This document shows, piece after piece, positions 17,780 through 62,070 of a DNA stretch of 64,000 nucleotides. The translations under genes and the position numbers were made by a program. This DNA comes from Dromaius novaehollandiae. Its lineage: Eukaryota; Chordata; Aves; Casuariiformes; Dromaiidae. The notes beneath the pieces are model-generated. The model was not told the DNA's origin. It searched no databases and saw nothing but the letters and a program-made list of their open reading frames with translations. The stretch is from the NCBI RefSeq assembly GCF_036370855.1, contig NC_088112.1, positions 16,670,469 through 16,734,468 of the forward strand, in the 5' to 3' direction. How positions within the stretch are numbered: the stretch's first letter is position 1; the number at the start of each line of letters is the position of its first letter.

Positions 17780-20700
17780 AACAATCCTCAAAAGATCACA
17801 TCTCCCTATACTTCACATATAAACACCATTGCTCATGACAGAAGTAATCCATTTCTAGTTGAAAAGCTTGTTTCTGCATTACTAATAGAAAAGCACATTT
17901 GTGAATGGTATCAAGCCTTGACAAATGAATGACAGAAAATACTCAGAACCATACAAAATTTAGCTTTCTCTGCAGCAAGATTTTATTAATGGAAATGACT
18001 GTTTTCCAAAGGAAGTAACATAAGCCTGGTAAAAACTATCCTTCAGCAGCGCTATCTAACTACCACAGCTGAGATGTCTACAGGTTATCTTAACGGAGTA
18101 ATCAGCACTCAACAGCTCGAAATTTTTATATTTTGGCTTTTTGCCTGGTTTGTCTGTAGAAGTAATTGAAGTAATTTAAATGTATGGACTATTAGCACAT
18201 ATTCTGTGTATCAGTTACTCAGTTGTTTACCTAACAGTTCAGACAGGTCGATCACAGACGCTTATGCTATGCTGCCCCTGTCCCACACCCCTGACATAGT
18301 ACTGCCAAAACTACAACAGTTCAGAATTACTACTACATAATAAACACTGATATGAAAACAAATGAAAAATCTCAAAATGGTTTGGCACATCATCTTACCA
18401 TCATTTTTTTCAAAGAGATCCATAACTTCTTTTTCTAGCAAGCTCATGCAATGTCCACCAAGCGGCTGGGCAACCAGAGTTCACTGATAGAGGCTTGCGA
18501 GTCAATGAGATGTTGACCAAGAGGTTTCTCTCTTTTCACTCCTGATTTGCTAAAGCTTGTTATTCTGTCACGCTGCAAAGCTATCCATTTAAAATCCATT
18601 TAAAAATAATGTATACATACAAGTAGAAACGCAGGAAAGCAGATATGTTAACTCAGTTGCGTGGCAGTAATATAAGTTGTTCTTAAAGCTAATCCAAGCA
18701 GCAGCATTAAAACTCAGCAACTGTACTGTCAGCAAAAATATTTTTACATACAGAGATTACATTTCATAGAAAGACATCATTTAAGGTAGATTCGTGACAA
18801 GTACGTAACCATATTTCAGGCTCAAAAGTATATGAATCATGTCAAATTCTTTGCATTTCAAGATTTTGAGTTGATCTTCTCACGTTACTCCCTAACCATC
18901 CTTGGGGTGAATAAATACAGTACCACAAAGATAATGTGAAGAGCTTTAAGTCTTTGAGGATATTATATAATGCTGTAAAGGTGGTACCCAAACTTATCTA
19001 ATATACATCAGATACAATTTTTTTCACTTACATTGAAATGTTCTCTTGGCAATCATTTAAAATGGCATTCAAGATCAATTTCACTGTAATCTGTTCCAAG
19101 TAAACCATATTAAGAACAAATCTGTTTAATCAGATTGTGATGGCAAGATCTCTTTCAAGCCACAAATGAAGCTTAGACATGGTTACTCTATACAGTTTCT
19201 TCATCTCAGACAGACAAGTGATGATTAACTCGACAGCCAGTGAGTAGCCAGCATGGCTTAAGTATCGTATCTAGAAAGCCCAAGTCAGTAATTTTACTGC
19301 AATCAATTTTAAAATAATTAAACAGTATACAGTTTATATAAAATACTTGGCAACAAGTTTCAAAGTATTCAAAATTATCAAGTTAATGCTACTGAATAGA
19401 GACGTGTTTGACATACAGTACACGGTTATTAGCCAAAATAGTTCCATTTGAATCATTTTGCAACTGACTTTGAAGAACAACTGCAGATCCTTTACCATTA
19501 AAAAAAAAGAAATAACATTCCTAACAGTTTGAACATATCTGCAGTGTTTACTCAAATATTTCTGCGGTTAAAGAAGCTTCTCCAGATCAGTATCGTTACT
19601 TTTCTTTAACTGAAGTTACAAAGGAAGTTCTTTAGGTATAGAAACTCAAAAATTTTCTGAAGTCTAACTCTTAATATCCTTGTAAGAACATGTCACATTG
19701 TCCACAGCGCTTGGAGTAAAACAGCATACAGTGAGGGGTTATCATTACAAAACACAATGTCATGAAGACCTTACCACATCATCTGCCAAAGATTTTATTT
19801 GAATATTCTATTAAAAAAAAAGAAAAAAGGAAGTTACCTATTGTTTCAAAACAATAGTCTATGTTTTATATGTTCTGTCATTAAAAATCACAATGTCAGT
19901 AACTGCTCTGTTTTCCCCACCCATTTCCTTGTAAACAAAAACAACAACAAAACCACTAAACACTCACTCCTACCTCCAGTCCCTGTGCCAGAACAAAATG
20001 ATGTGGGAAAAAAGATGAACCCACTTCTTTCAGCAGCAGGGATGTGTCAAAGGGCTCAAACTAGGACATTAAATCCTAGGAAAACACTCCAGTTTATACA
20101 TTAGTAGCATAAAGACTGGCAATAAATTCTGATTGTATAGTCTGTCAAGTTCAACATATTATGTCAGACTTGAGTGACTCTCAAAATGACCCAGAGCAAA
20201 AAATATTGAATTAGGAGTTTTAATACAGACTGCCTCCACTTTTTTTGGGTGTACACATACACTTCACCATTTCCATAAACTTCAACCATTTCTAGCACAA
20301 ATTCTTTCTCTGTAGCCTGGTTTTAGTTCCTGTCAATCAGGGAATAAATACTAGCTATCAAATCCAGCTTCACTCCTTAAAAAAAAGTGACCCTGCTTAT
20401 GGAACAAACCCCTCTGCTCCCATGGGCCAAGCACCACTGCCCACCCCTTAATTTCACATAGAGGGGAAGGGAAGCAAAAGACCTCTGCTGCCTGCACCGA
20501 GAAGCTCCCTTTCCCCAAAATAATGATTTCAGCTGTCCTAACTCCCTCTGATCTGGAGCCATTTTAAGTCTATCAGCTGAAAATCAGTCCCCTAGCCCTC
20601 TTCCCAATGACTTGCTTAAGTTCAGCCGCTTTGCCAGGTACTAAAAATGTATATTCTGTTATAGGTAGCTGCACACCCTCTCCCACAAAGTCCTGTTCAG

Positions 20701-23700
20701 CACTGCACTTGATGTAGTGAAATAAATAAAGTTATGGAAAAGAGACATACTGCCATCAGCACACTGTAAGAGCTCTTTGATGAACTGCATGTAGCAAATT
20801 GAAAAAGTGATTTTGATTCATCTACATAACTTAATTGTAACTTGGTGAATCACAAATTGTGAAGCTGAACCAAGAAAATCTCCATACCAAACTCTTCATA
20901 TGCTTTCTGCAGAAACGCAGTGACAATTTCACACTTGTACAAAACCCCAAGATTTTCTTACAGAAGTCCCAAATGCCCCCTTAATCTTATTTGTACAGTG
21001 AAGAGAACTGGGATGAGGTACAAGCAAGGTTACTCTCCAAGTACCTAAAGAGATTGCTAGCCTCAGCTGAACAGATTGCTCATTCGAAATTAAAGCCAGC
21101 AAAATTTAACAAGATTATTCTTTTACATAATGGACGAAGCCTCCCCCTGATCACAGTCTTCTTCTTCCCTTGGAAGAAGATACCAATAACTGATACACCA
21201 GGCTACCCACTCACTCACACCGCCTCGAGAGATTTTATTTTCTCGCAGAGAGACTCTATTTCACTTAAGTTTTACATAGAATTTGTGTAGATCATGTCCA
21301 AAATAAATCTACTTTCCCAGTCAACACATTTACTCGATTATACAATCGGAGGGTAGTCACTTTATCTCAGGTTAAGGTTATCTTTCAGAAGGTATCTAAT
21401 TCAATATATCGCTATTCAAATCCGCGCTCTCGTTGGGCTGTAATGATTTCCTCAGGGCACAAAAGCACGTAAGACTGCCTGAGAACTCAAGTATTACTCT
21501 AATGTATTTTTTCACTAAATGGAACAAAAAAAATTAGTGATTCTAGAAGGACTGATGAGAACATACAATGGAAAGAGTTGGCCTGCTTAAGGCAATTTTG
21601 AGCTCATTTCGCACTTGATTTTTAAAATTGAATAGTTATTACATAACAAAGTGCTTTCCTCTGATAGAAAGAAATTCAGATTTATGTCCACGGCTTCAAA
21701 TAGAAGCGCTTTCCTGTGTCCACACACTACACACAAGATTTTTTCAATGACTTCTTTGTGGGCATCTTCAGCTAGCTTTCCTCGCTAGTTTAGCTGTAAG
21801 AAGTTTGTTTATATTATGACAGCACAAGAAAGTATGAGTTTGTTTGTAATAAGACCATAAAACAAAGTAAAACATCATGTTTGGTTGTGTCTGGTTAAGA
21901 TATACATGGTCACTTTTAATACAAGCAGATTGTAACTTACTCAGTATTCTGGCTTTCCATCATCCTCGTAAATAACTGGCACTTTCAGCAGCTTTTTTAT
22001 GCCTCATACATTACCAATTTAATATTAAGATCTCACTTGCTTTTGAACAGTTGGCAAGCTGCTAGGCATTGCAATGAAAATACATTAGTCTGATTTTTTT
22101 CCCCCTCTTCTCATTATAATGAAAACAAGGCGCAGGTAGTCATGCCTCCCTAAGCATAAAAACGATGCAGTGTGTGTGCGCAAACCTCCTACCAATCTAT
22201 TAAGTGAGCCTGAATGAGCTGAGACCTGGCATGTGGTAATCTTTGCCAGAAGTATATTTCTATTACGTGTGTTGATTGCCCAATAAAAATTTCAGGTTGG
22301 TGTTAAAGTTCTGATGATGTAGGAAATTACACGTGGCTTGGGATCTTCTAACTTCATAATGCGACAAGTGATTATTATTGATTTGGAAGTGAGGCACAGA
22401 GGCGCATCAAACCTCCTGGCTTTACTGATAGGACAGGTAGCATATGGGGAACGTGCTTAAAAGATCTGGCCTCCTGAAGGAGAGAGTAACAAAGCAGAAT
22501 CAAAATGCTAGGAATAGAAAGGATTTTCACAAATCCTGGAAAAGCAGTCTTGTAGCAGCCTAGGCAGTGCTGAAGGTCAGGCATTGCTTTAGAAAACACA
22601 CATATCAGGGGACACAGTCTACTAAATCTCACCTCCAAGTGATTTCTGAACAGAATTTGCTGCTTCAATATATTTTAAAGGAATGTGTATGCCTTAATTA
22701 CACTTCCAGATTCCAAGTTTAAGATAAAAACAGTAAAGCACTGGATAGCTATTGCTCCTTCCTCATACAGCAGTATTTTAACAGGCTCCAACATAAAACA
22801 TCACTTGATGAGAGAGCAGCAACATTTTTCAGTAGTTTCAGCACCTATGTCATTCCATGTAAATGAGTGAGGGCTTTAAGAAGGCTTAATTAGGAAAGTA
22901 TTTTTTGAGCGGAATCATGAAAGGTTCAGACCTGTAGTGGTGAATCACAGTAACGGTGTGAGGCAGTGCAGATTTGGGAATGTGATGCTTCCCTCTGCTG
23001 GCTGATGCACAGAGAGTATTACACGGTGAAGCACGCCGCAATAATATTTTTGAAAGCAGCCTCTGCTCAGGACTGAAGCAATTACAGTCTCTTGCACTGG
23101 AAGGATTAAGTCCCTTACCTGCATCACAAAATAGCTTTCTCTTATAAAGTGACTAAAATCACACCGATCAGTTTTGGGAAAGTGAAAGGGCACTAATATT
23201 TTAAGCCATTTCATGTCTACTAATAACATTGCCACTAAGTTTTAGCAGTATGTTCGAAAAAGCATGCAATCAAGTACTTGAATATTGCAAGGGAGATATT
23301 TATCCAGGGTGGACCCATGATCCATATAGCTTTGTGAATGACATTGAAAACTGGCTTATCTTCCAGCTTAACTTTGGAGAGTTTAAGCGCTCAGTTAATT
23401 TCAAAGGAGAATTTCTGGGCATAAAAGCTCATTCTGCGAGGTAGCCCAAAGCCATGCAAACTCCAAAGGCAGCATCAGCGGCTGATCGAACTCGGCTTCC
23501 TGGTCAGTCGCAGTATGTAAAGTAACAGGAAAAAATGCTCAGCATTTGTTTACAGTATCCGTATTTGTATGCTAATTATTAGGAGCTTTCACATACGCTT
23601 CGTATAATTTAAGACTGCCTCGTACATGAAAGCCTCTTGCTGTCTTGTATAACTTAGGATGTTCTTTCAAGTGTGGAGAAGACTTCTATATTTATTCTTC

Positions 23701-23850
23701 CTTCCTTAAATTATGTCATTTTGCCTCTATCGTGTCTACTGTTACAGGACGCAGATCCTCCACCTTTCTAGCTACAGATAATTAGCTCAGTGAGAGACCT
23801 TCTCTTATGTCTTAAATTTTAAGTTCTTATGGTAAATCAGTCCTAGCTGC
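17780..23850. other. AT-rich block without a recognisable gene
   Basis: About 6 kb of visibly AT-rich sequence with sharp edges against GC-rich flanks. It is dense in stop codons on both strands, has AATAAA-like words on both strands (for example plus-strand 18339-18344), and contains no protein family I recognise. The texture resembles a long 3' UTR or a conserved non-coding block more than intron. It may belong to an unassigned transcript or mark a rearrangement junction; the sequence alone does not decide. Confidence 0.5.
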
Positions 23851-24030
23851 TGAGAGGCCGCTCAAGCTGGCTCGCCCGAGGTGCAGAGCAGCCGAAGTCC
23901 CCGCTGCGGTCCCCAGCTTCGGCAGCGGCACCTTCCTCGCATTGCTGTTGCCCTGCAGGGCCATTCCCGCCCCGGAGACAGGAGGAAGGGGTGACTGCTC
24001 AGCACAGGGTATCTGGGCTCTCTGCCTGCG

Positions 24031-24075: not shown

Positions 24076-24984
24076 TGGGTGCCCTCCCTCTCAAGCGCTC
24101 GGTTGACGAAGAGCTTCACATTTGCTGCCTGTCCCTGCTCCTTCGAAGTCGGCTGTCCGGTCTCGTGCAGTCACGGGAGCAAGCTGCCGGCCTGCAGAAC
24201 TGAGCATGCATGTGGCTGCAGCGATGCAAGGGAGGAAGGACGTGTGGGTGGTGGATGCGCACGGCCGGCAGCGGAAGGCTAGCGCTGTTTAACCCAACCC
24301 TCCCCGAACCTCCTGCCGTGCTGGAGGGCGCAGCAGTGCTCCTGAGCTGCTCAGGGTGCAGGTCCCAGCGCCGGCCCTGCGCTCCCCTCTGCTGACCCCC
24401 GGTGTCCTCATCTGCCCCACGGAGAGAGGGAAACCCTGGCTCCAAGCTGTCCGAAGCAACTTTAGCTGCGGCGCGGTGCTGCAGGGTTTGATTTTTGTTG
24501 CAACAGCAACACCCACAGCATGGTGCAACACAAACGTGCACTGCCCGAGTGTAAAATTGAAAAATAAAGCACAGCAACGCAGTGCTACGTGCCCCAGATA
24601 GCTGCCTGGAGGCTGCTGGTGCTTCGCTGCCCTGTCGCGAAGTGGGACATCGCTCTGCAGCAGGCTCTGCCTCAGCAGCAGGGAAAGGTCTGAACCAAAC
24701 TCCTTGCCTCTGTCCTGCAAAAACCGAAGTTTGAGTTTTGTCCTGGAATCATCAAGCAGAGTCTGTTTCTGGGCTCGCTGAGAGTGGGCGAGCAGCGGAA
24801 GGCACAAGGTGGGAACAGATCTGCTGGTAAATCCTGTGGCTTTGTGGTTATACTTGGAGTTGCTCTGCAATCGCGTTGCAGCGGAGCCCCTCCAGGAGGG
24901 CTGACCCTGTGCTGCAGAATAGGATGTCGCGTTGCAGGCAGCGAGCACTGTGTGTTTCTTCAGCTGCATACCAGGAACTGTGGG

Positions 24985-25075
24985 CCGAGGACTGTGAAAC
25001 GGAGGCTTTGCCTGGTAACAAATGACGTCACTTGAACGCCCTCAGGGTTATTTCCAACTCCACGCCTGAAATAAT
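24985..25075 (+). promoter_or_regulatory. distal X-box module A (RFX plus CRE), about 3.3 kb upstream of the CD74 start codon
   Basis: CCTGGTAACAAATG at 25011-25024 fits the MHC class II X1 box bound by the RFX complex. It overlaps TGACGTCA at 25023-25030, a perfect CRE and the ideal X2 site. No CCAAT (Y box) lies at the usual spacing downstream. The surrounding bases resemble module B at 27485-27575 over roughly 90 positions (GGGCCG, TTTGCCTGGTAAC, AACGCCC). The CD74 link is inference from position; a promoter for an unseen transcript is an alternative. Confidence 0.55.
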
Positions 25076-27484
25076 AGCTCTGTCTGCTTGGGTCAAGGTC
25101 TCCATGTAACAGGCAAGTCTGAACTAAGTCCCCCTAAGACTGAACTCCTTCTCTCGGATATTAAGGTGGTTTGGTTCCCCCCCCAAAAGACAGCCAGTTC
25201 CCCAGCCTCCTATAATCAAGATTTACCATATTATCAAGAGTTTCACGGGCAGCACAAAACGTGGCTGTCCTGACTCCTGCGTATCTGAAGCCTGGGGGGT
25301 GACAACGTGGTGCCGAACATATGTTTGGGGCCAATTTATGGGTTACTCTGAACAGGGCCATGAGGGGGAAGGCTCTGTTTCTGCTTCTTCAGAAGAACAA
25401 GCCCTCTGAGACCCCAGCTAGAGCCTGTGCATGTGCCGCAGAGGTGCAGGGACTTGGTTTCCACCCCAGCTGCCTGGGTTCGGGTACTACTCTGAGGCTG
25501 TGGAAGAAACAGCTGGGAAAAAGGAGGGCTGAAAGGGTCTGCATCTGCCCTGGGAAACTCACTTACAGACCTAAAACGCATCAAACGTCACTGCCCTGTG
25601 CCGAAAGGGGTAGTGTGATGTACTGGAAAAGTTGACAGAAAAGAGATGTCTGGATGCAGAGCAAATGGTTGATTCAGTGGTGAAAATCCATGAGCTGGGC
25701 TTGATTACGGGGGGGACCCCCACATAGGGGCAGCCCTGCTGCCTCCTTCGGCTCACGTAGGGAAGAGCGTGAGTCTTCTCCCTCTGCCCCCACAGCAAAA
25801 TGTGCAGAATTAGGCACATTTCCAATGAAATCACTGTCGGTTTCATTTATCTAGTTCCTACTAAGACTTTCCATAGTTCCCCTTTCGGACTGAGGCCAGT
25901 CATGGAAACGTGCCCGGCGCTCGCTGGGCTCTGCGGGTCCTTTCCAGCCCCCTGTTCGGACAGGTCAGGTGCAACTGTGCATCCATGAGGAGTGACTCGT
26001 CTCCAAAACAGCCTCCGGGCGCTGCTGGGGATGGCTGCTCGCAGCCGAGCTTGGCACCGGCTCAGGGAGCGCGGCAGCCACGAAGTTCTGTCCACCCTGG
26101 AGCAGAGCGAGGACAGCTCTGCACCATCACGGCTCCTCGTTTGCGTGGTGACGCCGTGCTGCGACACAGTGCGGGGCCAGCCCGAACGCACTGCGTGCGC
26201 TGTCCACGGGAGCAGGACCCGGGCAGGATGTGCCCCACAGATCTCCAGTGCTCAGGTGCAGAGCAGGGATGTGGAGGTGCAGCTGCAGGTGGGAAAAGGC
26301 TAACAAATATCCACATCATCCATGGGCACCTGCAGCAGGGTCAGGTCTTGCTCACGCGGGTGGATCTGGGTGTCCCCAGTGCATCGCTCCAGCTGTGCCA
26401 GCACAGGCGTGCAGCGCCAGACCTGTGCCTCCCGCCGCGCCAGCAGTGCTGCTCCCCTCCGCCGGCACTGGCTCCGTGGAGGAGCTGGCCCGAGGAGCCA
26501 GAGCACGGGCCAGGAGGGACCGGCATCTCCTCCAGAAACAGCATCTCCCGAGAAACTCTGCCTGAGTCTTCGTAAACGCCTTTTCATTTTTCCTGAAACC
26601 TGATTTCTCAGCTAACTGGATGCCTAGAAAAACCTCAGTACCAAGATTAGGCAAGAGAAGTGAGGCGTTTCCGTAATGCCAGCTCAAATGGCTGTTTTAG
26701 AAGTAAAAAGCTGCGAATACACACGACCTGCAGGCCGGGAAGCAGCGTGGGGGCTCCCCAGCTATCCTCGGTGAAGGCACGCTCCCCACCTGGTCTGGTG
26801 AAGACCACACGGGAAAAGCTGGGGAGCAGGCAGCCGGGAAGGTCTCTGCACCAGGCACAGCCTCGACACCCAGGGCTGGGCAGAGCGAACACGGAGGTTT
26901 GCCTGACTGCCGGGTGGTGGTGGCACTTCCAGCCGCATCTGGGAGGACAAGCCAGTCCGTAGAGACGTGGCAGGCAAGACTTAAGCGCTGGGGGTGAGCC
27001 CAGGCCAGGTCACCCCATCTCCATCCCTCACAGCTCCAGGAATTTCAGGTCCCAGCCTGGCTGACAAGCACAGCGGGGGAACGGGGCTCCCTTAGGACAA
27101 AATGGGCGGAAGATGGAGAGTGCTTGGGCATCGCTGTGCTGCCTCTGGGACTGATCCAGGCAGATCAGGATGAGACTGCATGCAGAAGCAGAGCAGGGAG
27201 CTGGTGGTCAGCTGGGGTCATGATATTTAACACAGCAGGAATCATTGCCTGATTTATGCTAGCTGGGTAAGGACACCTTGAAGGGCTTTCCAGGGGTGTG
27301 CTTATGGCAGGCAGGGAGCAGGATGTGGCCCCAGCCTTGCTCCCAAGGGTGAGTGTGTGCTGGGGCTGCCGGCTTTGCAATTCAATCCTTGCCAGCTAGA
27401 GAGCCCTGGAGCTGAGCTAGCAGAACCCGTGTAACAGTTAAAGAAGGCTTCCTGAGCTCCTTGCAGCTCCCGAGGCGAAACTTT

Positions 27485-27575
27485 CCGGGCCGTGAGCCGT
27501 GAGTGCAGTGTTTTGCCTGGTAACCGGTGACGCCAGCAAACGCCCGCACGGGTTGCTTTTAACTTCACCCCCGGA
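27485..27575 (+). promoter_or_regulatory. distal X-box module B, about 0.8 kb upstream of the CD74 start codon
   Basis: CCTGGTAACCGGTG at 27516-27529 fits the X1 consensus and overlaps TGACGCCA at 27528-27535, an X2-like CRE variant. As in module A there is no CCAAT downstream. The tail AAACGCCCGCACGGGTTGC parallels the equivalent part of module A. It lies at the edge of the CD74 CpG-rich promoter region. Confidence 0.5.
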
Positions 27576-27926
27576 GTATCGCTTCTGGCTGAACTCTGAC
27601 CGAGGTCGTGCTGGCTCCTGACGCTGGAGGTGGCAGCGCAGGGAGCCTGGCGCCCCGGTGGGGGGGCAGCCCGTGGGGGCAGCCCGAGCGGGGGGTGCCC
27701 AGCGCTGCGGCAGGCCCTGGGCTGCCTTTCTCCCACCGCCGTTGAGCAAAACCCGGGTGGCCGCTTCTCCTCTTGCGTTTTTGGGGTGGAGGCAGGGCTG
27801 CCGGACGCACTTGGGGCCCCAACCCCAGCCGTGGCAGGTGACAAGTGCCCAAGAGGGCCTGAAAACAGTTGATGGTCCTTTTAGTGTTACCCCCTCGTGC
27901 TGGCGAAACGCCCCCGCAGCGACATG

Positions 27927-28174: not shown

Positions 28175-28233
28175 GAGACCTGGCGGACAGAGCTCTGCCT
28201 GGCAGCAGGTGACGCGGCCCGCGGCAGCCAATG
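28175..28233 (+). promoter_or_regulatory. CD74 proximal S-X-Y module
   Basis: In order: GAGACCT at 28175-28181 (S/W-box-like), CCTGGCAGCAGGTG at 28198-28211 (X1, RFX), TGACGCGG at 28210-28217 (X2, CREB/ATF-type), and CCAAT at 28228-28232 (Y, NF-Y). Order and spacing match the enhanceosome that recruits CIITA at MHC class II and invariant-chain genes. It lies about 110-165 bases upstream of the CD74 start codon. This predicts expression in antigen-presenting cells and induction by interferon-gamma through CIITA, known for the family but not testable here. Confidence 0.7.
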
Positions 28234-28339: not shown

Positions 28340-28416
28340 ATGGCCGAGGACCAGCGGGACCTGCTGTCCACCTCTGACCGCGGCAGCGCCGTGGTGCGCG
28401 TCGCCGAGCCCCAGAG
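28340..28416 (+). CDS. CD74: CD74 exon 1: cytosolic sorting tail
   Basis: Codes 25 residues plus two bases; ATG follows GGCGGAGCC, a good initiation context with G at +4. DQRDLL is the acidic dileucine signal bound by AP-1/AP-2 adaptors in the family. The second Leu/Met-Leu-type signal of the mammalian tail is not evident between here and the membrane span; the sequence instead reads GSAVVRVAEPQR. The donor GAG|GTGCGG opens into the intron-1 minisatellite. Confidence 0.92.
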
Positions 28417-31400
28417 GTGCGGCGGGAAGGGGCGACCGTGGGGCAGGAGGAGGCACAAGTGTGGCTGTGGGGCCAAGGGGGGGTGCAGTTGTGCGGAGCA
28501 GGGCGTGGCGCGGCTATGGGGTGGAAGGAGGCAAGTTGGGCCAAGGGGGGGGGTATGGCATGGCTGTGGGGCCAAATGGGGCACAGTTGGGCCAAGGGGA
28601 ACATGACGTGGCTATAGGATGGAAAGAGGCAAGTTGGGCCAAGGGGGGGGTATGGCATACCTCTGGGGCCAAATGGGGCACAGTTGGGCCAAGGGGAGCA
28701 TGGTGTGCCTATGGCACACAGTTGGGCCAAGGCCATGGGGCCGAATGGGGCACAGTTGGGCCAAGGGGATCTCGGCATGGCTGTGGGGCCAAGGAGGGTG
28801 CAGTTGGGCCAAGGGGGTCTCGGTGTGGCTATGGGGCCAAATGGGGCACAGTTGGGCCAAGGGGGTCTCGGTATGGCTGTGGGGCCAAAATGGGGCGCAG
28901 TTGGGACAAGGGGGGTCTCAGTGGGGCTATGGGGCCAAGGAGGGTGCGGTTGGGCCAAGGGGGTCTCGGCATGGCTGTGGGGCCAAATGGGGTGCAGTTG
29001 GGCCAAGGGGGTCTCGGCATGGCTGTGGGGCCAAATGGGGTGCAGTTGGGCCAAGGGGGTCTCGGCATGGCTGTGGGGCCAAGGGGGCAGGCACAGTTGG
29101 GCCAAGGGGGTCTTGGTGTGGCTACAGGGCCAAGGGGGGTGCAGTTGGGCCAAGAGGGTCTCGGTGTGGCTGTGGGGCCGAGGGGATGTGGTGTAGCCAC
29201 CAAGCACAAGGGTGGCCGTGGGCATGGCATGGACACGGGACCCCCTCGTGATGTAGGGCTGTCCCCTTGGCCCAGGGTCATCTCCCATCTCCCAGCCACC
29301 TTCACCCACCTTGGGGGGGAGGGGGGGGTCAAGCACCCCAGCCAATCAGAGAGCTGGGAACTGCTGACATCAGGAGTAGCCGGGCAGGCAGGCCGGCAGC
29401 GAGACCGGATCCTGCAGCCGCGTGCCAGCCCGAGGCTCCTCTGGGCGCTGCCACTGGCCTCTCCCACCGCTTCCCTGGAGAAAGGCGGCTTCTGAGACAG
29501 CTCTGCCGGGGGAGAGAGTTTGAAAGCGCGTCAGAATATCTGCCCCAAAGTGCTGTTTTTTACCTCTTTCATTTTCTGGAGGAAAAAAGCATCCGTTGGT
29601 TCTGATTAATAGAACAGGCAAATCAAATGAGCCCACAGGACATGCAACTCGAAAAAAATCCTTGCACAGAAGAGCAAGAGAAAGGGAGTCAGATTGTGTG
29701 GACAGGGAGTAGGAGGGGACCGTAAGGATTTTCCCATTGCTCTGGCATCAGGTGCTCCTGGGCCACTGCCAAGCTCTGCTTCTGCCACCTGTGGAGCTGC
29801 ACAGGCCCCCCCCCGAGCGAACCGATCTGTTCCCCCACCCCTGCCAGGTTCAGTTTGGCTCCTGAGAGCCTGGCACTTCCTTCCTCTGTTTGCATTTCTT
29901 CGGCACCTGTTTGCAGTCTGTAGCCTCGCTAAAGCCATCCCCTGCCAGCAGGCGCAGGTCAAAGACCTGCTGGCGGTGTGTGGCTGCCCTCACTCGTGTG
30001 CTTGGGACCTTGCCCACTGCTGGCAGCATGCAGAGAAGTGCAGAGTCTGCCTCGGCACCCAAGTGTGGTGCTGGCCAGGTACCTGCTTCGCCCTCATGCA
30101 GCCGCGGGACTGCTTTTGCATGAGTTTTGCTTTGGACAGCAGCAGGGTGCCTTGCCCATGCGCCTTCTATTTACTTTTTAGAAGTATATACAACCTGGCA
30201 TCCTTTGGGATATGTCCTCTGCCCATGGGGACCCATGGCCTTTCCCAGCTGGCTGCACCCTGTGCTGAGGGGCTCTGGCGAAAGGGGGTGCCCCAGCTGG
30301 GCTGCTCTCCCCCGAGCCATGTGACGTGTCCTGAAACCCCCTCGCAGCGTGCTGGCACTCAGCCTGCGGCTGCTGCTGTGCCCCCGTGCTTCTGGCTGCC
30401 CCCTCCGTGCGTGTCCCACCTACGCCAAGCAGGTTTCGGTTCCCCTAAATGTACAGAAGTAACCTTAACACTGAAATTTCACTTCTGCATGCTGCCGGCA
30501 GCCAGCGCCTGCTCCCCCGCTGGCCTGCCGGAGCTGGTGGTACTTAAAAAGTGCCTTTGTTTGGCTGCAGAGTTGATGGAGGCTAGTTAGGGTGGTCCAT
30601 AGACTAGCATGAGGATTTTGTGGGGCAGAGATTGAGGAGTACAAGTGTGTTTCCTGCAGCCTGTGGTGCCACCTCCTCGGGGTGTTAATTGGAAATCCCC
30701 GTACTTGGGTTACTGGCGTAAAGGTTGGGCAAAGCACCAAGAATGCGGCTCCTGGGCCTCTCCCTCAGCACCCTTACAGCAGGGTTTTGTGAACATTTCC
30801 AGCTTTCAGGAGAGCAGAGCAGGGCCTGAGCTCCTTCCCCTGTGTCTTGCAGATCTACGTTTGGCCGCAAAGCTGCCTTCTCTGCTCTCTCCATCCTGGT
30901 GGCCCTGCTCATCGCTGGCCAGGCTGTGACCGTCTACTTCGTCTACCAGCAGAGCGGGCAGATCAGCAAGCTGACCAAGACTTCGCAGACCCTGCAGCTG
31001 GAGTCGCTGCAGAGGAAGCTGCCTCCAAGTCAGTAGCTCACGTGGTGGCGGTAGGAGGTGGCTGGGGAAATGTGGCAGGTCTTGCTTGACCTCCAAAATG
31101 AAGGTCAGCAGGGGGAGATATCTAGGAGCGGGCCTGGCTTTCTGGGCAGTGGCAGCTCCCCGGGGCTGTTGGGGACCTTCCCCTGGTGGAGTTGTGTCTT
31201 GCAGAACATGACCGTGCAGGAGAGGGTCAGGGGATCGGGGGATGGTCTCTTTTGTTGGTCCCCCTCACGTTGCTCCTTTCTCGGCAGGTGCCAAGCCCGC
31301 AAGCAAGATGCGGATGGCTGTGGTGAACGTGCCCCTGGCCATGAAGGATCTGCCACTTGCCCCCTCTTCGGACGGGATGGTAAGAGGTGGCCACCCCTGC

Positions 31401-34400
31401 CTTGCGCTGACTGCTGCCTCATGGCCCACTGCCAGGCCTTAGGCTGACTCTTTCCTTTTGAATTTTCTCTTTAGTCTGTGGAGAGCATGGGGCCCCTTAG
31501 CAACAAAACAGAGGACCAAGTCAGGCACCTGCTGCTGGTAAGGTCACCATGTGTCCCCTGGTGTGCAGGCACTGCCAGAGTGTGCCAACCCCCCACAGCT
31601 ACTCTCTGTGCTGCCGGAGGCAGTGGGACCCCATGCTTTGGGCGGCTGGATGGGCATCATCGAGGGTTCCCCTCCTGCACCCTCAGGGTCTCAGAGCTGG
31701 TGGGAGCTCCGGGACTCCTGTAATATCACTCTGGTTAACGAGATCTTCATCCCATCCCTTCTTTTTTCTTTGCCCTGTCTCACTCTGGTGGTCACCTCTG
31801 CAGCAAGCAGACCCAAAGAAGATGTTCCCAGAGCTGAAAGACAACCTGATGGACAACCTGAAGCGCCTGAAGAAGTCCATGACTGATTCGGATTGGAAGG
31901 TCAGTGTTTGGCTGCGGTCCTGCCCTGCACCTTCCAGAAGCACTCTGCTTTTCTCTTGGGAGGGACTGGCATGTCTGTACCTGGAAATGCAAATCCTTAT
32001 TGTGCCAGGCTTGCATTTCTCCCACCCCAAGGGAGGGGACATGCACGCGGCTGTCACTGCTCTGAGCTGGAGCCTGCAGCAGGGCACGTGTCCCCGTTGT
32101 GCATGTTCCCTTCTCCTGGTTACCCTGTGCTGTTTCCCCTTCTTGCAGTCCTTTGAATCCTGGATGCACAAGTGGCTGCTGTTTGAACTGGCCAAAAACC
32201 CCCAGAAGGATGAGAAGGTGATCCCGGCGGCGAAAGGTATCACAGATGGGGGCTACTAAATTAAGGGAGGGTTAGGACTAGCCCTTCAGTAACAATTGCA
32301 TCCCACGAGGGTACAGCATGAGAGCACCCCACAGGCAACTGAGACTGGCCCAGGAGCTAGGAACCTCTTCCTTCCTCAGTGTCCAGCCAGGAACCTCTGT
32401 CTGGAGCCGTTAGGATGCCCTTGGGGCAGGGCATGGTGGCTGTTGAGGGTGAGGGCATGGGTCCAGGACAGCATCTGGGGCACTGCTGGGCTGGAGAGAG
32501 GAGTTCAGGCAACTGCTCCCCCTAGCCCTCAGGGTTTCCACTTTCGCAGAGGTATTAAAATGTCTTCACTGTTGGTCTTCAGCACCTTTGGTGCCTCTAA
32601 TCTGCACCAATAAAGCCAAACTCACAGGGAAAGGAACAGCCTTTGGGGCTTTGCAGAGGAGCTGTTTGTTTGTTGGACTGAGGCTGAAGTCAACCAGGAC
32701 TTTCCAAAGGAAAACTCATGGTCCCAGAAAGGGCCGGCCAGAGGCGCTGCCCGTTATCTGTGAGCAGACACAGAGATGTTGGAAAAGAGTGAACGTCTGG
32801 AAAAACACACCACCACTTCAAATCCTGTTGGTTAGAAGGAAAGCTTTAAAAAAAAATCCCTGGGGTGGGGTTTGCTCTTCCTCCTTTTAAATTCTGTTTA
32901 GCTGCTTCTGGATAAAAGCTCAGTGCCCAGAACTTCACACCGATTCGTTCCCTAGCCCTGGTCAGACCAATCCCCCTTAAGAAAATTGATGTTGACATGG
33001 TCTCCATTAAGTAGGGTTGTTACAGATTGCTATCATTAGGGTGAATGGCCCTTCCAGGAGAAATCCCCAAAAAGGCAGTCGTCCCAATGAAGTTAGGATT
33101 TTGTTTGTTTCCAAAACAAGCATTTTCCAGTTGCTTCCCTGCTCGTGTAGTGTCAAGGGGCTGGCCCAGGGTTTCCGAAACCCTGTTGGGTGACGCATCC
33201 TCTGGCCGGTTGTTGGCTGGACCGTCCTCTGGGCTGAGCGATGCCGTAAGGCTCCTGGGCAGTAGACAGCCCGAGGTGCTCATGGTGTATCCTGTTTGTT
33301 TTTATTGCCCTAGTGCAAACTAAGTGCCAGGTGGAGGCCAGTTCTGGTGGTGTCCATCCGGGTCGCTTCCGCCCCCAGTGCGATGAGAATGGAGACTACC
33401 TTCCCAAGCAGTGCAATGCCAGCACGGGCTACTGCTGGTGCTCCTACAAAAATGGCACCAAGATTGAGGGCACTGACACTCGGGAAAAGCTGGATTGCCC
33501 TGGTAGGTTGCCAGGGTGGGGAAGGAGGAGAGGAACAAACAGCACCTCCAGTCACAGTCCCTGGTTTCTCTTGAGCTCAGTAAGGAGCAGAACCAGCCAG
33601 GAGCTGAGAGGGTGCCCAGCACCACTCAAGCTGCTCAGCGCATTACAGGATCAGGCAGTGCCCCATTAGGGAGAGGCCAGGTGCCCTGGGGTCAGGTGGC
33701 ATGGGTGGCCAGCAAAGGAAGAGGTTCCTAGAGGCAGCAGTGACCTGCCACCTTTGCTCCTGTGGGGCCTACCCCAAGGATGTGCTGTGGGGGATGGCCC
33801 TTCCCTGCCCCTTCAGCACCTCCACACCATGCAGTGCCATTGTGTTATGGCTGTTCTCTCTGAAGGGGACCTTAAAAAAAAATAGGAATGGGAGCCTCAG
33901 CCCTTGCCTAGTCACAGCTAGAGCTAAGGCCCTGAGTCCTGCCCCTCCTGTCTCTTGTTTGAGGTCTGAGGTTATCTGAAGTCCCAATGCAGCCCCTCAA
34001 AACAGAGCAAAAAGGCCCCAGCTTTTACAGGTGGGGGAAAACATTCAAGAGAGTCTTGCTTCACTCATCCCCTGCATTGCTCAGCCTGCCCCTTGGCACG
34101 CACTCGATCCCACCATGTCAGCATTTGGCTGAGCTTGAGCCAGGGTTGTTCATGTCCTGGCAAGGGAGCCCTCGAATGGCAGCAGGGCTCGTTGCAGTGA
34201 CTACAGTAGCAGCAGTACAGGCCACCAGCATGGCAGTAGCAGAGAGGGTGGCACAGGGCAGTGTGCTTTCCTTGTCCCAATGCCGAAGTACTTTGTGTCC
34301 CCTGCAGCTGCACCCAGAGGTTTGGAGCCAGAGGAGATGATCTTCTCTGGGGTGGATGTTCTCAAGCTGGACACGGAGAAAAGTGAGTGGCTCAGCACGG

Positions 34401-59900: not shown

Positions 59901-60369
59901 AAAGAGGGAGCATTTCCTCCCCACGTGCGGGCGCTCCCAAGAAAGCCCTCCTCTCCCGGAGCTCTGCCCGGCTGCAGCGCGGCGGACCCGCCTCCTCCCC
60001 GCGCCGCCGCCGCGGAGACACAGATCAATCAGTCCATATATATATATATAGATATATATAAATATATATGTGTGTATATATATATATAAAAAAACATATA
60101 TATTTGCGCACACGTGCACAGGCGCGTATCTAGGTACAGGCCTCGGCGCTGCCCCAGGGACGGGCCCGGGCCCCCGGTGGCTGCTCGCTGGACCCGAGGC
60201 CCTGCGGGGGCTCCAGGCCCGCGCGGCCCCCCGAGCCCGGCCCCGCCGCCGCCGTTACCTGGCCCAGCTGCGCCTGCAGCTCGCGGGCCGCCCGGGCGTA
60301 GCCGCCGCGCAGCAGGTGCTGGTGGATGAGGGCCAGCAGCTCCCGCTGCCCGCGGCCGCCCGCCGCCAT
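38352..60369 (-). CDS. TCOF1: TCOF1, treacle ribosome biogenesis factor 1 (17 coding exons)
   Basis: Exons in transcript order: 60369-60259, 59795-59740, 56902-56760, 55359-55256, 54976-54631, 53779-53685, 53182-52958, 52351-52082, 47229-47055, 46902-46754, 44872-44699, 44154-43905, 43609-43527, 42726-42531, 41438-40872, 39072-38969, 38387-38352; phases are continuous, about 1,027 aa (human about 1,490). Treacle is a nucleolar scaffold for RNA polymerase I, UBF and rRNA modification, and recruits NBS1 in nucleolar DNA damage. Seen: an N-terminal LisH motif; twelve exons each with one Ser/Glu/Asp cluster (for example ESSDSSSSSESEEE) separated by Lys/Pro/Ala linkers; then lysine-rich exons and a KKKTAE ending like human. 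The acidic clusters are typical CK2 targets. Exons may be missing in the 4.8-kb intron 47230-52081. The exon-14 acceptor is uncertain (42726 or 42708). Confidence 0.92.
38969..39072 (-). CDS. TCOF1: TCOF1 exon 16: lysine-rich segment
   Basis: The acceptor CTTGCCTAG is followed by seven adenines. With the one base carried from exon 15 it reads KKKNGKEKKKKGKKASSEG and ends AEVHKKKK before GTATGTGC. It continues the basic tail. Confidence 0.88.
40872..41438 (-). CDS. TCOF1: TCOF1 exon 15: large lysine-rich C-terminal exon
   Basis: The longest exon (567 bases). It opens EDKPPPGQEAMGPSGKEKAA, has one more acidic patch (PESEESSSGSESE), and then dense lysine/glutamate runs such as EEKKKKKKEKKEKK and KKKKKKAAGDLEKLPGSKEK. 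These basic runs match treacle's C-terminal nuclear and nucleolar localisation region. The purine-rich coding strand here (about 41090-41165) is a likely slippage-prone spot. Confidence 0.93.
42531..42726 (-). CDS. TCOF1: TCOF1 exon 14: acidic cluster with SDTDVE motif
   Basis: Codes a Lys/Ala/Pro linker and then NSSSSDSSDSDTDVEQVP. SDTD followed by an acid is the CK2-phosphorylated motif known from MDC1, and a related SDETD in human treacle, that binds the NBS1 FHA/BRCT unit. The motif lies at 42556-42576. Two acceptors keep the frame: before ATG at 42726, or after CCTCAG giving 42708; neither has a strong pyrimidine tract. A better-looking acceptor at CCTCCTCACAG further upstream would break the phase with exon 13. 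Confidence 0.8.
43527..43612 (-). CDS. TCOF1: TCOF1 exon 13 with tandem NAGNAG acceptor
   Basis: Codes GVLQKPGGTEPAHSSSSESS followed by EEEGTASQ. The acceptor reads CTTCAGCAG, so splicing at either AG keeps the frame and differs by one alanine codon (exon start 43612 or 43609). NAGNAG sites are often used both ways. Confidence 0.85.
44422..44446. repeat. poly(A)/poly(T) tract in a TCOF1 intron
   Basis: Twenty-five adenines in a row on the plus strand, T on the TCOF1 coding strand. No retrocopy body next to it. Confidence 0.9.
47230..52081 (-). other. long TCOF1 intron 8
   Basis: 4.85 kb without a convincing treacle exon. Since avian and mammalian treacle differ in repeat number, a diverged repeat exon could hide here; I saw no in-frame Ser/Glu cluster with splice sites. 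Confidence 0.5.
53867..54012. repeat. poly(A) tract and CA microsatellite in a TCOF1 intron
   Basis: Thirty adenines at 53867-53896 and a short AAAC/CA repeat at 53989-54012 on the plus strand, both likely length-polymorphic. Confidence 0.9.
56903..59739 (-). other. TCOF1 intron 2
   Basis: No exon recognised. It contains an adenine run on the plus strand at 57754-57775. Confidence 0.6.
57754..57775. repeat. poly(A)/poly(T) tract in TCOF1 intron 2
   Basis: Twenty-two adenines on the plus strand after a TATATT context. Confidence 0.9.
59740..59795 (-). CDS. TCOF1: TCOF1 exon 2: conserved LEEIFTHWQ segment
   Basis: A 56-base exon too short to stand out as an open frame. It reads KLLPSLTTSLEEIFTHWQ with a strong acceptor (CTTTCACAG) and donor (AAAA|GTAAGTC). 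It corresponds to the human segment ending LLDIYTHWQ, and the phase (0 in, 2 out) joins exons 1 and 3. Confidence 0.88.
60036..60104. repeat. AT/TA microsatellite in TCOF1 intron 1
   Basis: About 70 bases of TA dinucleotides interrupted by GATA, a short TG stretch and an A run. It lies 155-220 bases downstream of exon 1, inside an otherwise very GC-rich island, so the contrast is abrupt. Confidence 0.92.
60259..60369 (-). CDS. TCOF1: TCOF1 exon 1: start codon and LisH motif
   Basis: Thirty-seven codons, phase 0, beginning at ATG in GCCGCCATGGC. RELLALIHQHLLRGGYARAA and RELQAQLGQ are a textbook LisH dimerisation motif, matching treacle's N-terminus ([20 protein letters not shown] in human as remembered). 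The donor is CAG|GTAACG. Confidence 0.95.
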
Positions 60370-60449
60370 GGCACCCCCGGCCCGCTCAGGGCGAGCCCCC
60401 GGGGCGCTCCCGGCCCGGCCACATGCCCGCGCGGCCCCGCTGACCCGCG

Positions 60450-60500
60450 CGCGTCACTTCCTCTTCCGCCGCGCCGGGCGCTGCTGGGAAATGTAGTGCG
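60450..60500 (-). promoter_or_regulatory. TCOF1 core promoter: ZNF143/THAP11-type and ETS sites
   Basis: On the minus strand ACTACATTTCCCAGCA (60497-60482) fits the promoter motif ACTAYRNNNCCCR used by ZNF143/THAP11. Between it and the start codon, GCGGAAGAGGAAGTGAC (60469-60453) carries two ETS cores, the second matching GGAAGTG. Both are typical of GC-rich, TATA-less housekeeping promoters, which suits a ribosome biogenesis gene. The exact start site is not visible. Confidence 0.6.
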
Positions 60501-60514
60501 GCCCCGCGGCTGGG

Positions 60515-62070
60515 CACCGAGCCCGGCTGGGGCAGCCGAGCCAGGAACCGGGCCGGGCCGGGGCAGCCGAACCGGGCCCCGAACCGAGCTGTGGGAACTG
60601 AAGGGGTCCGAACCAGGCTGGGGGAGCTGAACCGGCCCCAAGCCGGGCTCCGAACCGGGCCGGAGGAGCCAAACCAGGCCCTGAACCAGCCCCTGAACCA
60701 GCCCCCGAACCAGGCCAGGGGAGCCGAACCGGGCCCCTGAACCGGGCCAGGGGAACTGAACGGGTCCGAACCGGGCCGGAGGAGCCGAACCGGGCCCCGA
60801 ACCAGGCCGGGGGAGTCGAACTGGGCCCCTGAACCGGGCCAGGGGAACTGAACGGGTCCGAACCGGGCCAGAGGAGCCAAACTGGGCCCCGAACCAGGCC
60901 GGGGGAGTCGAACTGGGCCCCTGAACCGGGCCAGGGGAACTGAACAGGTCCAAACCAGGCTGGGGGAGCCGAAGCAGGAACCGAACCAGGCTGGGGGAGC
61001 CGAATTGAGCCCTGAACTGAGCTGTGGGAGCAGAATGGGTCCGAACCGAGCTGTGGGAGCTGAACCGGCCCCACACCGGGCCCCGAACCGGGCCGGAGGA
61101 GCCGAACCGGGCCCCGAACCGGGCCAGGGGAGCTGAACGGGTCTGAACCAGGCCAGAGGAGCCGAAGCAGGAACCGAACCGCGCTGGGGGAGCTGAACTG
61201 GTCCCCAGACCAAGCTGAGGGAGCTGAACAGGTCCAAACCAGGCTGGGGGAGCTGAACCGGCCCCACACCAGGAACTGAACCGGGCCGAGGGAGCTGAAC
61301 CGGGCCCAGAACCAGGCTGAGGGAGCTGAACTGGGCCCCAAACAGAGCCAGGGAAGCCGAACCAGGAACTGAACCAGGCTGGGGGAGCCGAACCATCAGC
61401 TGAGCTGGGCACTGAACCAAGCTAGGGGAGCCAAACCCAGCTGGGACCTGAACTGGGCCGAAGAAGCCGAATCGGGAGCTGAGCCCACCAGGACAGCCAG
61501 GCCGGGAGCTGGACCGAGCCGGGCTGGCCCAGGGAGCTGCGCCAGGAGCTGCAGCGGGCCAGCCCGAGCGCCGAGTGGAACCAGAACAGAACCCCACTGG
61601 GCCAGAGCAACTGAGCTGGGAACCACACCAAGCTGAAAGCTGAACTGGGGCAGGGGAGCTAACTGGGACCGAAATCCAAGCTGTACCTAGGCCTGAACTG
61701 GGCCAGGCTAGGGGAGCCATCCAGGAACCGAACTGGGCAGAGGAGCTGTACCTGGACAAAGCTGGAACTGAACCAGGCTGGGGAAAATGCTCCCGGCAAC
61801 TAAACTGAACTGGGCAGGGAGAGCTGCACCCAGGAATGAAACCAACCAGGCCACGGGAGCCAAACTGGGGCCTGAACGGGGCTGGGGGAACAGAACGCGG
61901 AACCAGACTGGGCCAGGTGGAGGAGCCATGCCCAGGAACCACACTGGGAACCAAACGAGGCCAGAGAAGCTGTGCCCAGGAGCCAGACCGAGCCATGTCA
62001 GGTGGAGGAGCCATGCCCAGGAACCAAACCCAGAATCGAACCGGACCAGGGAAACCACCTGGGGACCAAA
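60515..62070. repeat. GC-rich minisatellite of about 31-bp units upstream of TCOF1
   Basis: Degenerate tandem array with a unit close to GGGCCRGGGGAGCYGAAC plus YGGGCCCYGAACC (29-32 bases), about 1.5 kb long. Between about 60720 and 60960 a higher-order block of three units (about 92 bases) is repeated with few changes. Regularity fades towards 62 kb, where only AACCAGGC/GGGAGC words remain. Long open frames through it, one over 500 codons, are products of the repeat. Confidence 0.92.

Follow-up and report, generated by a model that had tools for sequence, protein, structure and literature searches.

The gene for the invariant chain, CD74, is preceded in the DNA analysed here by two copies of a cassette of about 110 bp, each built around an RFX-type X1 site and a CREB-type X2 site. 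The two modules, A (24977-25086, the distal copy) and B (27480-27591, the proximal copy), lie 2.5 kb apart on the plus strand and are oriented the same way as CD74. We take them, with a probability of roughly 0.6, to be a duplicated RFX/CREB element that acts on CD74, similar to the distal X-box-like (XL) elements of human MHC class II genes. The window, i.e., the whole stretch that was analysed, is 64 kb long (G000:C15:16670469-16734468) and belongs to an assembly of 1.47 Gb in 271 contigs.

CD74 itself occupies positions 28340-33502 of the plus strand. Exons 1-7 (exon 1, 28340-28416), translated after splicing at sites picked by eye, give an invariant chain of the p41 type with 260 residues, the terminal exon being outside the mapping; the identity of the gene is seen from Pfam matches to the CLIP (PF09307), trimerisation (PF08831) and thyroglobulin-1 (PF00086) domains. 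Judged from this protein, the animal is probably a bird. Upstream of it, also on the plus strand, is a gene with stretches similar to the RhoGEF, BAR and SH3 domains of Pfam; of its two RhoGEF matches one falls under the curated cut-off, as do the BAR and SH3 matches. Presumably this neighbour is ARHGEF37. Much of early intron 1 of CD74 (28512-29185) is occupied by a GC-rich minisatellite with periods of 48 and 97 bp. Upstream of module A, at 18001-24000, the GC content falls to 35-42%, against 57% and 56% in the adjoining 2-kb blocks. Another unusual stretch, 60001-62000, has a strong AT skew (0.415) at 68% GC and long open frames that encode repetitive peptides, and is probably a minisatellite.

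The boxes at the center of the two modules are CCTGGTAACAAATGACGTCA at 25011-25030 and CCTGGTAACCGGTGACGCCA at 27516-27535 of the plus strand, exactly as quoted in the preliminary description of this DNA. The longer box of A (25007-25030) consists of the RFX-like sequence TTTGCC-T-GGTAAC, in which X1 is CCTGGTAAC, followed by AAA and by the full CRE TGACGTCA as X2; that of B (27512-27535) consists of TTTGCCTGGTAAC, CGG and TGACGCCA, the latter an X2 one base away from a CRE. Measured against the consensus CCTRGYAAC-N3-TGACGTCA, box A has no mismatches and box B has one, located in X2; X1 agrees with CCTRGYAAC at every position in both modules, and the CRE-like X2 follows 3 bp past it. Class II modules have a 3-bp gap between X1 and X2, and the X1-X2 reading of both boxes fits in spacing as well as in sequence. 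A and B have the same X1 with TTTG in front of it, and TTTGCC-T-GGTAAC thereby forms a near-palindromic RFX site, of the kind preferred by RFX proteins including RFX1-3. Other landmarks named earlier were found in place: GGGCCG, said to lie about 30 bases before the box, begins 29 bases ahead of X1 in both modules (24982 and 27487), and AACGCCC begins 5 bases past the last box base in A (25035) and 4 bases past it in B (27539). The distance from X1 to the CD74 ATG is 3329 bp for A and 824 bp for B, in agreement with the placement at -3.3 and -0.8 kb proposed before.

Homology of A and B over about 110 bp is well supported, mainly by the sequence on the 3' side of the box. A conserved block at and past the Y position (25035-25086 in A, 27539-27591 in B) starts with AACGCCC and runs through GGGTT to AACTCCAC in A, and the two modules have GGGTT...AACT.CAC in common where a Y box would sit; the same anchored-score and alignment tests apply to both copies of the block. 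In the pairwise alignment with the box excluded, 60 bp of 3' flank against 60 bp gave a local score of 27, which was reached by none of 2000 shuffles (maximum 24); shuffles over 100 bp had a maximum of 26. The best of 228 real 100-bp windows between 22 and 34 kb also reached 26, so the plain local score is not decisive alone. Anchoring the flanks to the box edge gives a score of 16 across 56 bp; none of 2801 real windows, all of them more than 200 bases from A and B, scored above 11, and none of 3000 Markov sequences above 9. Global alignment of the 56-bp flanks likewise gives 16; among 2947 random real pairs (3000 less 53 removed as too near), the highest score was 12. Within this stretch (25031-25086 in A) there are 39 matches and 15 mismatches, 10 of the latter being transitions, and the ungapped identity over 56 bp is 72%.

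On the 5' side the likeness is weak. The local score there was matched by 548 of 2000 shuffles over 100 bp and by 1098 of 2000 over 50 bp, the anchored score was reached by 17 of the 2801 real windows and 17 of the 3000 Markov sequences, and 13 of 25 positions are identical without gaps, a value equalled by 74 of 11858 windows. The 25-30 bp upstream of the boxes are thus weakly alike, which is suggestive; the idea of similar flanks on both sides, as first proposed, holds firmly for the downstream flank and in this suggestive form for the upstream one.

The kinds of substitution point in the same direction. Transitions account for 19 of the 28 aligned mismatches in 3' flank, box and 5' flank (P 2e-4 against 1/3; 13 of 19 without the 5' flank), and for a share of 0.31 in random real pairs; such an excess is expected of duplicates, with the caveat that the aligned stretches were picked after the likeness had been noticed and that degenerate binding sites can raise the transition share. 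Conservation is highest in the X1-X2 core, where 20 of 24 positions are identical, and within it TTTGCCTGGTAAC is the same in A and B at 13 of 13 positions, including the left half-site TTTGCC. A decidedly improbable alternative is independent evolution, in which selection produced each of the two CIITA-type X-X2 sites on its own and the likeness of their flanks is due to coincidence or convergence. It would agree with the marginal 5' flank, with the local score of 26 attained by unrelated neighbouring sequence, and with a promoter box that resembles A and B across the box alone (see below), but has to contend with an anchored 3' likeness above every real window and every Markov sequence, with the transition excess, to which degenerate binding sites could contribute, and with complete identity of TTTGCCTGGTAAC where functional degeneracy would permit variation.

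A scan along the 2505-bp offset gave one clear peak, 39-42 at 24950-25000, followed by runner-up values of 26-27 at 23800-23850 and 24 at 25400. Away from the module the scan stays at about the level of unrelated windows, and the homology is therefore taken as confined to about 110 bp; a larger segmental duplication was rejected on the same grounds. BLAST searches of the assembly with A and with B returned each query itself alone and no close copies. Since A and B miss each other in these searches, copies this diverged would escape detection, and a close repeat family is rejected at BLAST sensitivity, which is too coarse for copies that differ as much as these two. A profile built from A and B was also run on the window with nhmmer, and its third match, after the modules themselves, is the CD74 promoter box, aligned over the box only with an E value of 0.47, under the inclusion line. 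A third cassette copy at the promoter was rejected: the box alone aligns, with local scores of 21 with A (23 columns) and 26 with B (28 columns).

In the 1.47-Gb assembly, the exact shared box pattern has two matches, namely A and B, and its reversed control has none; a broader X1-X2 pattern, CYTRGYAACNNNTGACGYMA, also matches A and B only, with three matches for the reversed control. At up to one mismatch, the shared pattern has 5 matches against 12 for the reversed control, so the near matches are regarded as noise. The counts alone are without enrichment, and the argument rests on both boxes lying together at CD74. Within the window, the shared pattern with up to three mismatches is found at three sites, where 0.23 are expected, and three were reached in none of 100 shuffles. 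Model R1 left the CD74 promoter box unreported at E values up to 10; elsewhere in the assembly, among the one-mismatch sites, it matched L006 (34 positions, E 0.0057), and it had no match on L005, L007 or the class II locus L004 described below. As L005-L007 were selected by the box, a match to the box is expected there. Taken together, the 3' alignment, the sole exact matches in the assembly and the transition excess support the earlier suggestion of a duplicated cassette.

Neither module contains the CCAAT Y box, as had been noted before; there is no CCAAT or ATTGG in the 401 bp around each box. CCAAC is seen 23 bp past X2 in A and is absent from B, a one-mismatch Y match of little weight. 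An S/W box is expected some 16 bp ahead of X; inspection by eye, without an S matrix, shows GGAC (A) and GAGC (B) near this place as putative counterparts. As the Y-box feature is missing, A and B are not classed as full S-X-Y modules. They could conceivably be true duplicates bound by RFX1-3 homodimers and CREB/ATF without CIITA, i.e., general rather than class-II-type elements; the absence of a Y box and the left half-site TTTGCC, which is the same in both and completes a near-palindromic RFX site, agree with this. We consider it rather unlikely, because the order and orientation of X1 and X2 and the 3-bp gap between them are those of class II modules, the gene downstream is a CIITA target, and the exact pair occurs at this locus alone in the assembly. 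The RFX5 family (PF14621) had no match in the assembly, which might be counted in favor of RFX1-3, but the control matched nowhere either, so that this null result shows little.

Class II genes themselves were also sought in the assembly. The MHC class II alpha domain (PF00993) had no match there, the control genomes being unmatched as well. The beta domain (PF00969) matched one exon on the minus strand of the 219.5-Mb contig C1 (L004, G000:C1:214514001-214523000), with the control genomes again unmatched. By eye, the promoter of this MHC-II-beta-like gene has an X-like sequence, CCTGGTTACCAGCGATG, with CCAAT 40 bp past the position of the 20-base box; a regular expression for the X box found none in this promoter.

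The promoter of CD74 has an X1-X2-like box of its own, CCTGGCAGC-AGG-TGACGCGG at 28194-28217 of the plus strand, with four mismatches to the consensus. The preliminary description had set this copy (20-base box at 28198-28217) apart by its CCAAT, and the CCAAT is indeed found at 28228, 10 bp past X2. In HLA-DRA the Y box comes about 18 bp after X2, and the gap at the CD74 promoter is below this value. It is likewise shorter than the 20-22 bp described between the Y box and the X box in most NLRC5 targets (PMC4374748).

Downstream of the promoter, intron 1 contains an inverted X-X2-Y candidate, CCCGGCTAC-TCC-TGATGTCA followed after 18 bp by ATTGG (29342-29384, minus strand), which was noticed by eye and then tested; given this candidate, the list of modules in the preliminary description is probably incomplete. 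X1 of the candidate has two mismatches and X2 has one, the elements are in the order X1-X2-Y with the 18-bp Y spacing, and no obvious S box was seen upstream of X by eye, without an S matrix. It is the sole site in 64 kb where X1-X2 has at most four mismatches, no more than two of them within X2, and is followed at 16-22 bp by a Y box; 0.017 such sites are expected (mean of 60 Markov sequences), the limits having been chosen after the candidate had been seen. Four hundred shuffles of the 5-kb region that holds A, B and the candidate produced no X-X2-Y site at up to three mismatches. A plus-strand match at 29353 overlaps the candidate by way of the near-palindromic CRE and is not counted separately.

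With the same limit of three mismatches, all four X1-X2 sites of the window lie within 25.0-29.4 kb, two of them overlapping, against a mean of 0.033 and a maximum of 1 in the 400 shuffles of the 5-kb region, whose limits were drawn once the sites were known. At up to four mismatches, the CD74 stretch has five of the eight sites of the window (shuffles: mean 0.333, maximum 4), and at up to five it has just 5 of 28. With two upstream copies and a differently built candidate inside the gene, CD74 may have several such switches rather than one. The duplicates might also be decayed relics, the promoter and intron modules being the ones that drive CD74; the missing Y boxes and the single base that separates X2 of B from a perfect CRE could be seen as signs of decay. 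This we find very improbable, as the X1-X2 core is precisely the part conserved best, and A and B are the sites nearest to the consensus at the locus, at zero and one mismatches against four at the promoter.

Distal S-Y or XL elements of the human MHC class II region were reportedly described by Gomez in 2005 and by Krawczyk in 2004. In human cells, RFX, CREB/ATF1 and NF-Y assembled on S-X-Y modules recruit CIITA (PMC4243378, PMC7866136), and CD74 is one of the CIITA targets, for which the relevant passages mention a promoter-proximal CIITA mark only (PMC4243378). The order and orientation of X1 and X2 in A and B are the same as in the S-X-X2-Y modules of MHC class II and CD74 promoters, but a CCAAT Y box and a clear S box are both missing; the promoter modules are described within about 200-300 bp of the start site (PMC4243378, PMC2278383), whereas A and B precede the ATG by 3.3 and 0.8 kb. 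A closer parallel is provided by the XL elements, which bind RFX and CIITA and have enhancer activity (PMC7866136). These are likewise distal X boxes apart from the promoter copy and were found by likeness to the X box; correspondingly, A and B are X boxes off the promoter and near a gene that CIITA targets in human cells. The differences are that XL elements sit inside the MHC class II cluster, with RFX and CIITA binding demonstrated, while A and B are a homologous pair at CD74, outside the MHC, and are known here from sequence. As for the missing Y box, CIITA recruitment is tied to the ordered S-Y module in most targets, yet incomplete modules exist: KIAA0841, a human CIITA target, has X/X2 without a Y-like sequence, as do A and B, though there the recruitment of CIITA was determined by ChIP and the module is close to the promoter, in contrast to the distal position of A and B (PMC2278383).

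These human precedents (S-X-Y, XL and Y-less X/X2) suggest to us that A and B are RFX/CREB elements that act on CD74, probably by way of CIITA. The proposed course of events is that a cassette of about 110 bp with an RFX-type X1 and a CREB-type X2 would have been duplicated upstream of CD74, after which both copies would have kept the box and the 3' block of about 50 bp, and the sequence around them would have diverged. X1 would be bound by the RFX complex (RFX5/RFXAP/RFXANK) and X2 by CREB/ATF1, and this platform would recruit CIITA, with other factors at neighbouring sites replacing NF-Y. A and B would then serve as an upstream enhancer pair on the CD74 promoter, working alongside the weaker promoter X-X2-CCAAT and the inverted X-X2-Y candidate of intron 1. 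RFX/CREB/CIITA action of A and B as a distal enhancer pair is, judged from their sequence, plausible but unproven.

In the house finch, just 5 SNPs are reported across 1967 bp upstream of CD74, and a scan of these 1967 bp with chicken factors lists two sites each for ZEB1 and NFE2L1 and none for NF-Y, which is not specific evidence for the modules (PMC3605853). Our literature search gave, among the matches listed and with subscription papers mostly outside, no title that deals with X boxes upstream of CD74 in birds.

A broader proposition, which we put forward only tentatively, is that CD74 in this lineage is run by an array of X boxes, comprising the two Y-less upstream duplicates, the weak X-X2-CCAAT of the promoter and the inverted intronic X-X2-Y, such that the strongest RFX/CREB sites are the distal ones. 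If true, the invariant-chain gene would be under a locus-control arrangement that resembles the multi-element control of the MHC class II cluster, and a Y-less CIITA platform would have been kept twice. CD74 must be co-expressed with MHC class II, and if it owns an array of distal X boxes, its co-regulation from a place outside the MHC would depend on more than a promoter module. The two homologous Y-less copies would also provide a natural setting in which to ask whether CIITA can be recruited by RFX and CREB without NF-Y.
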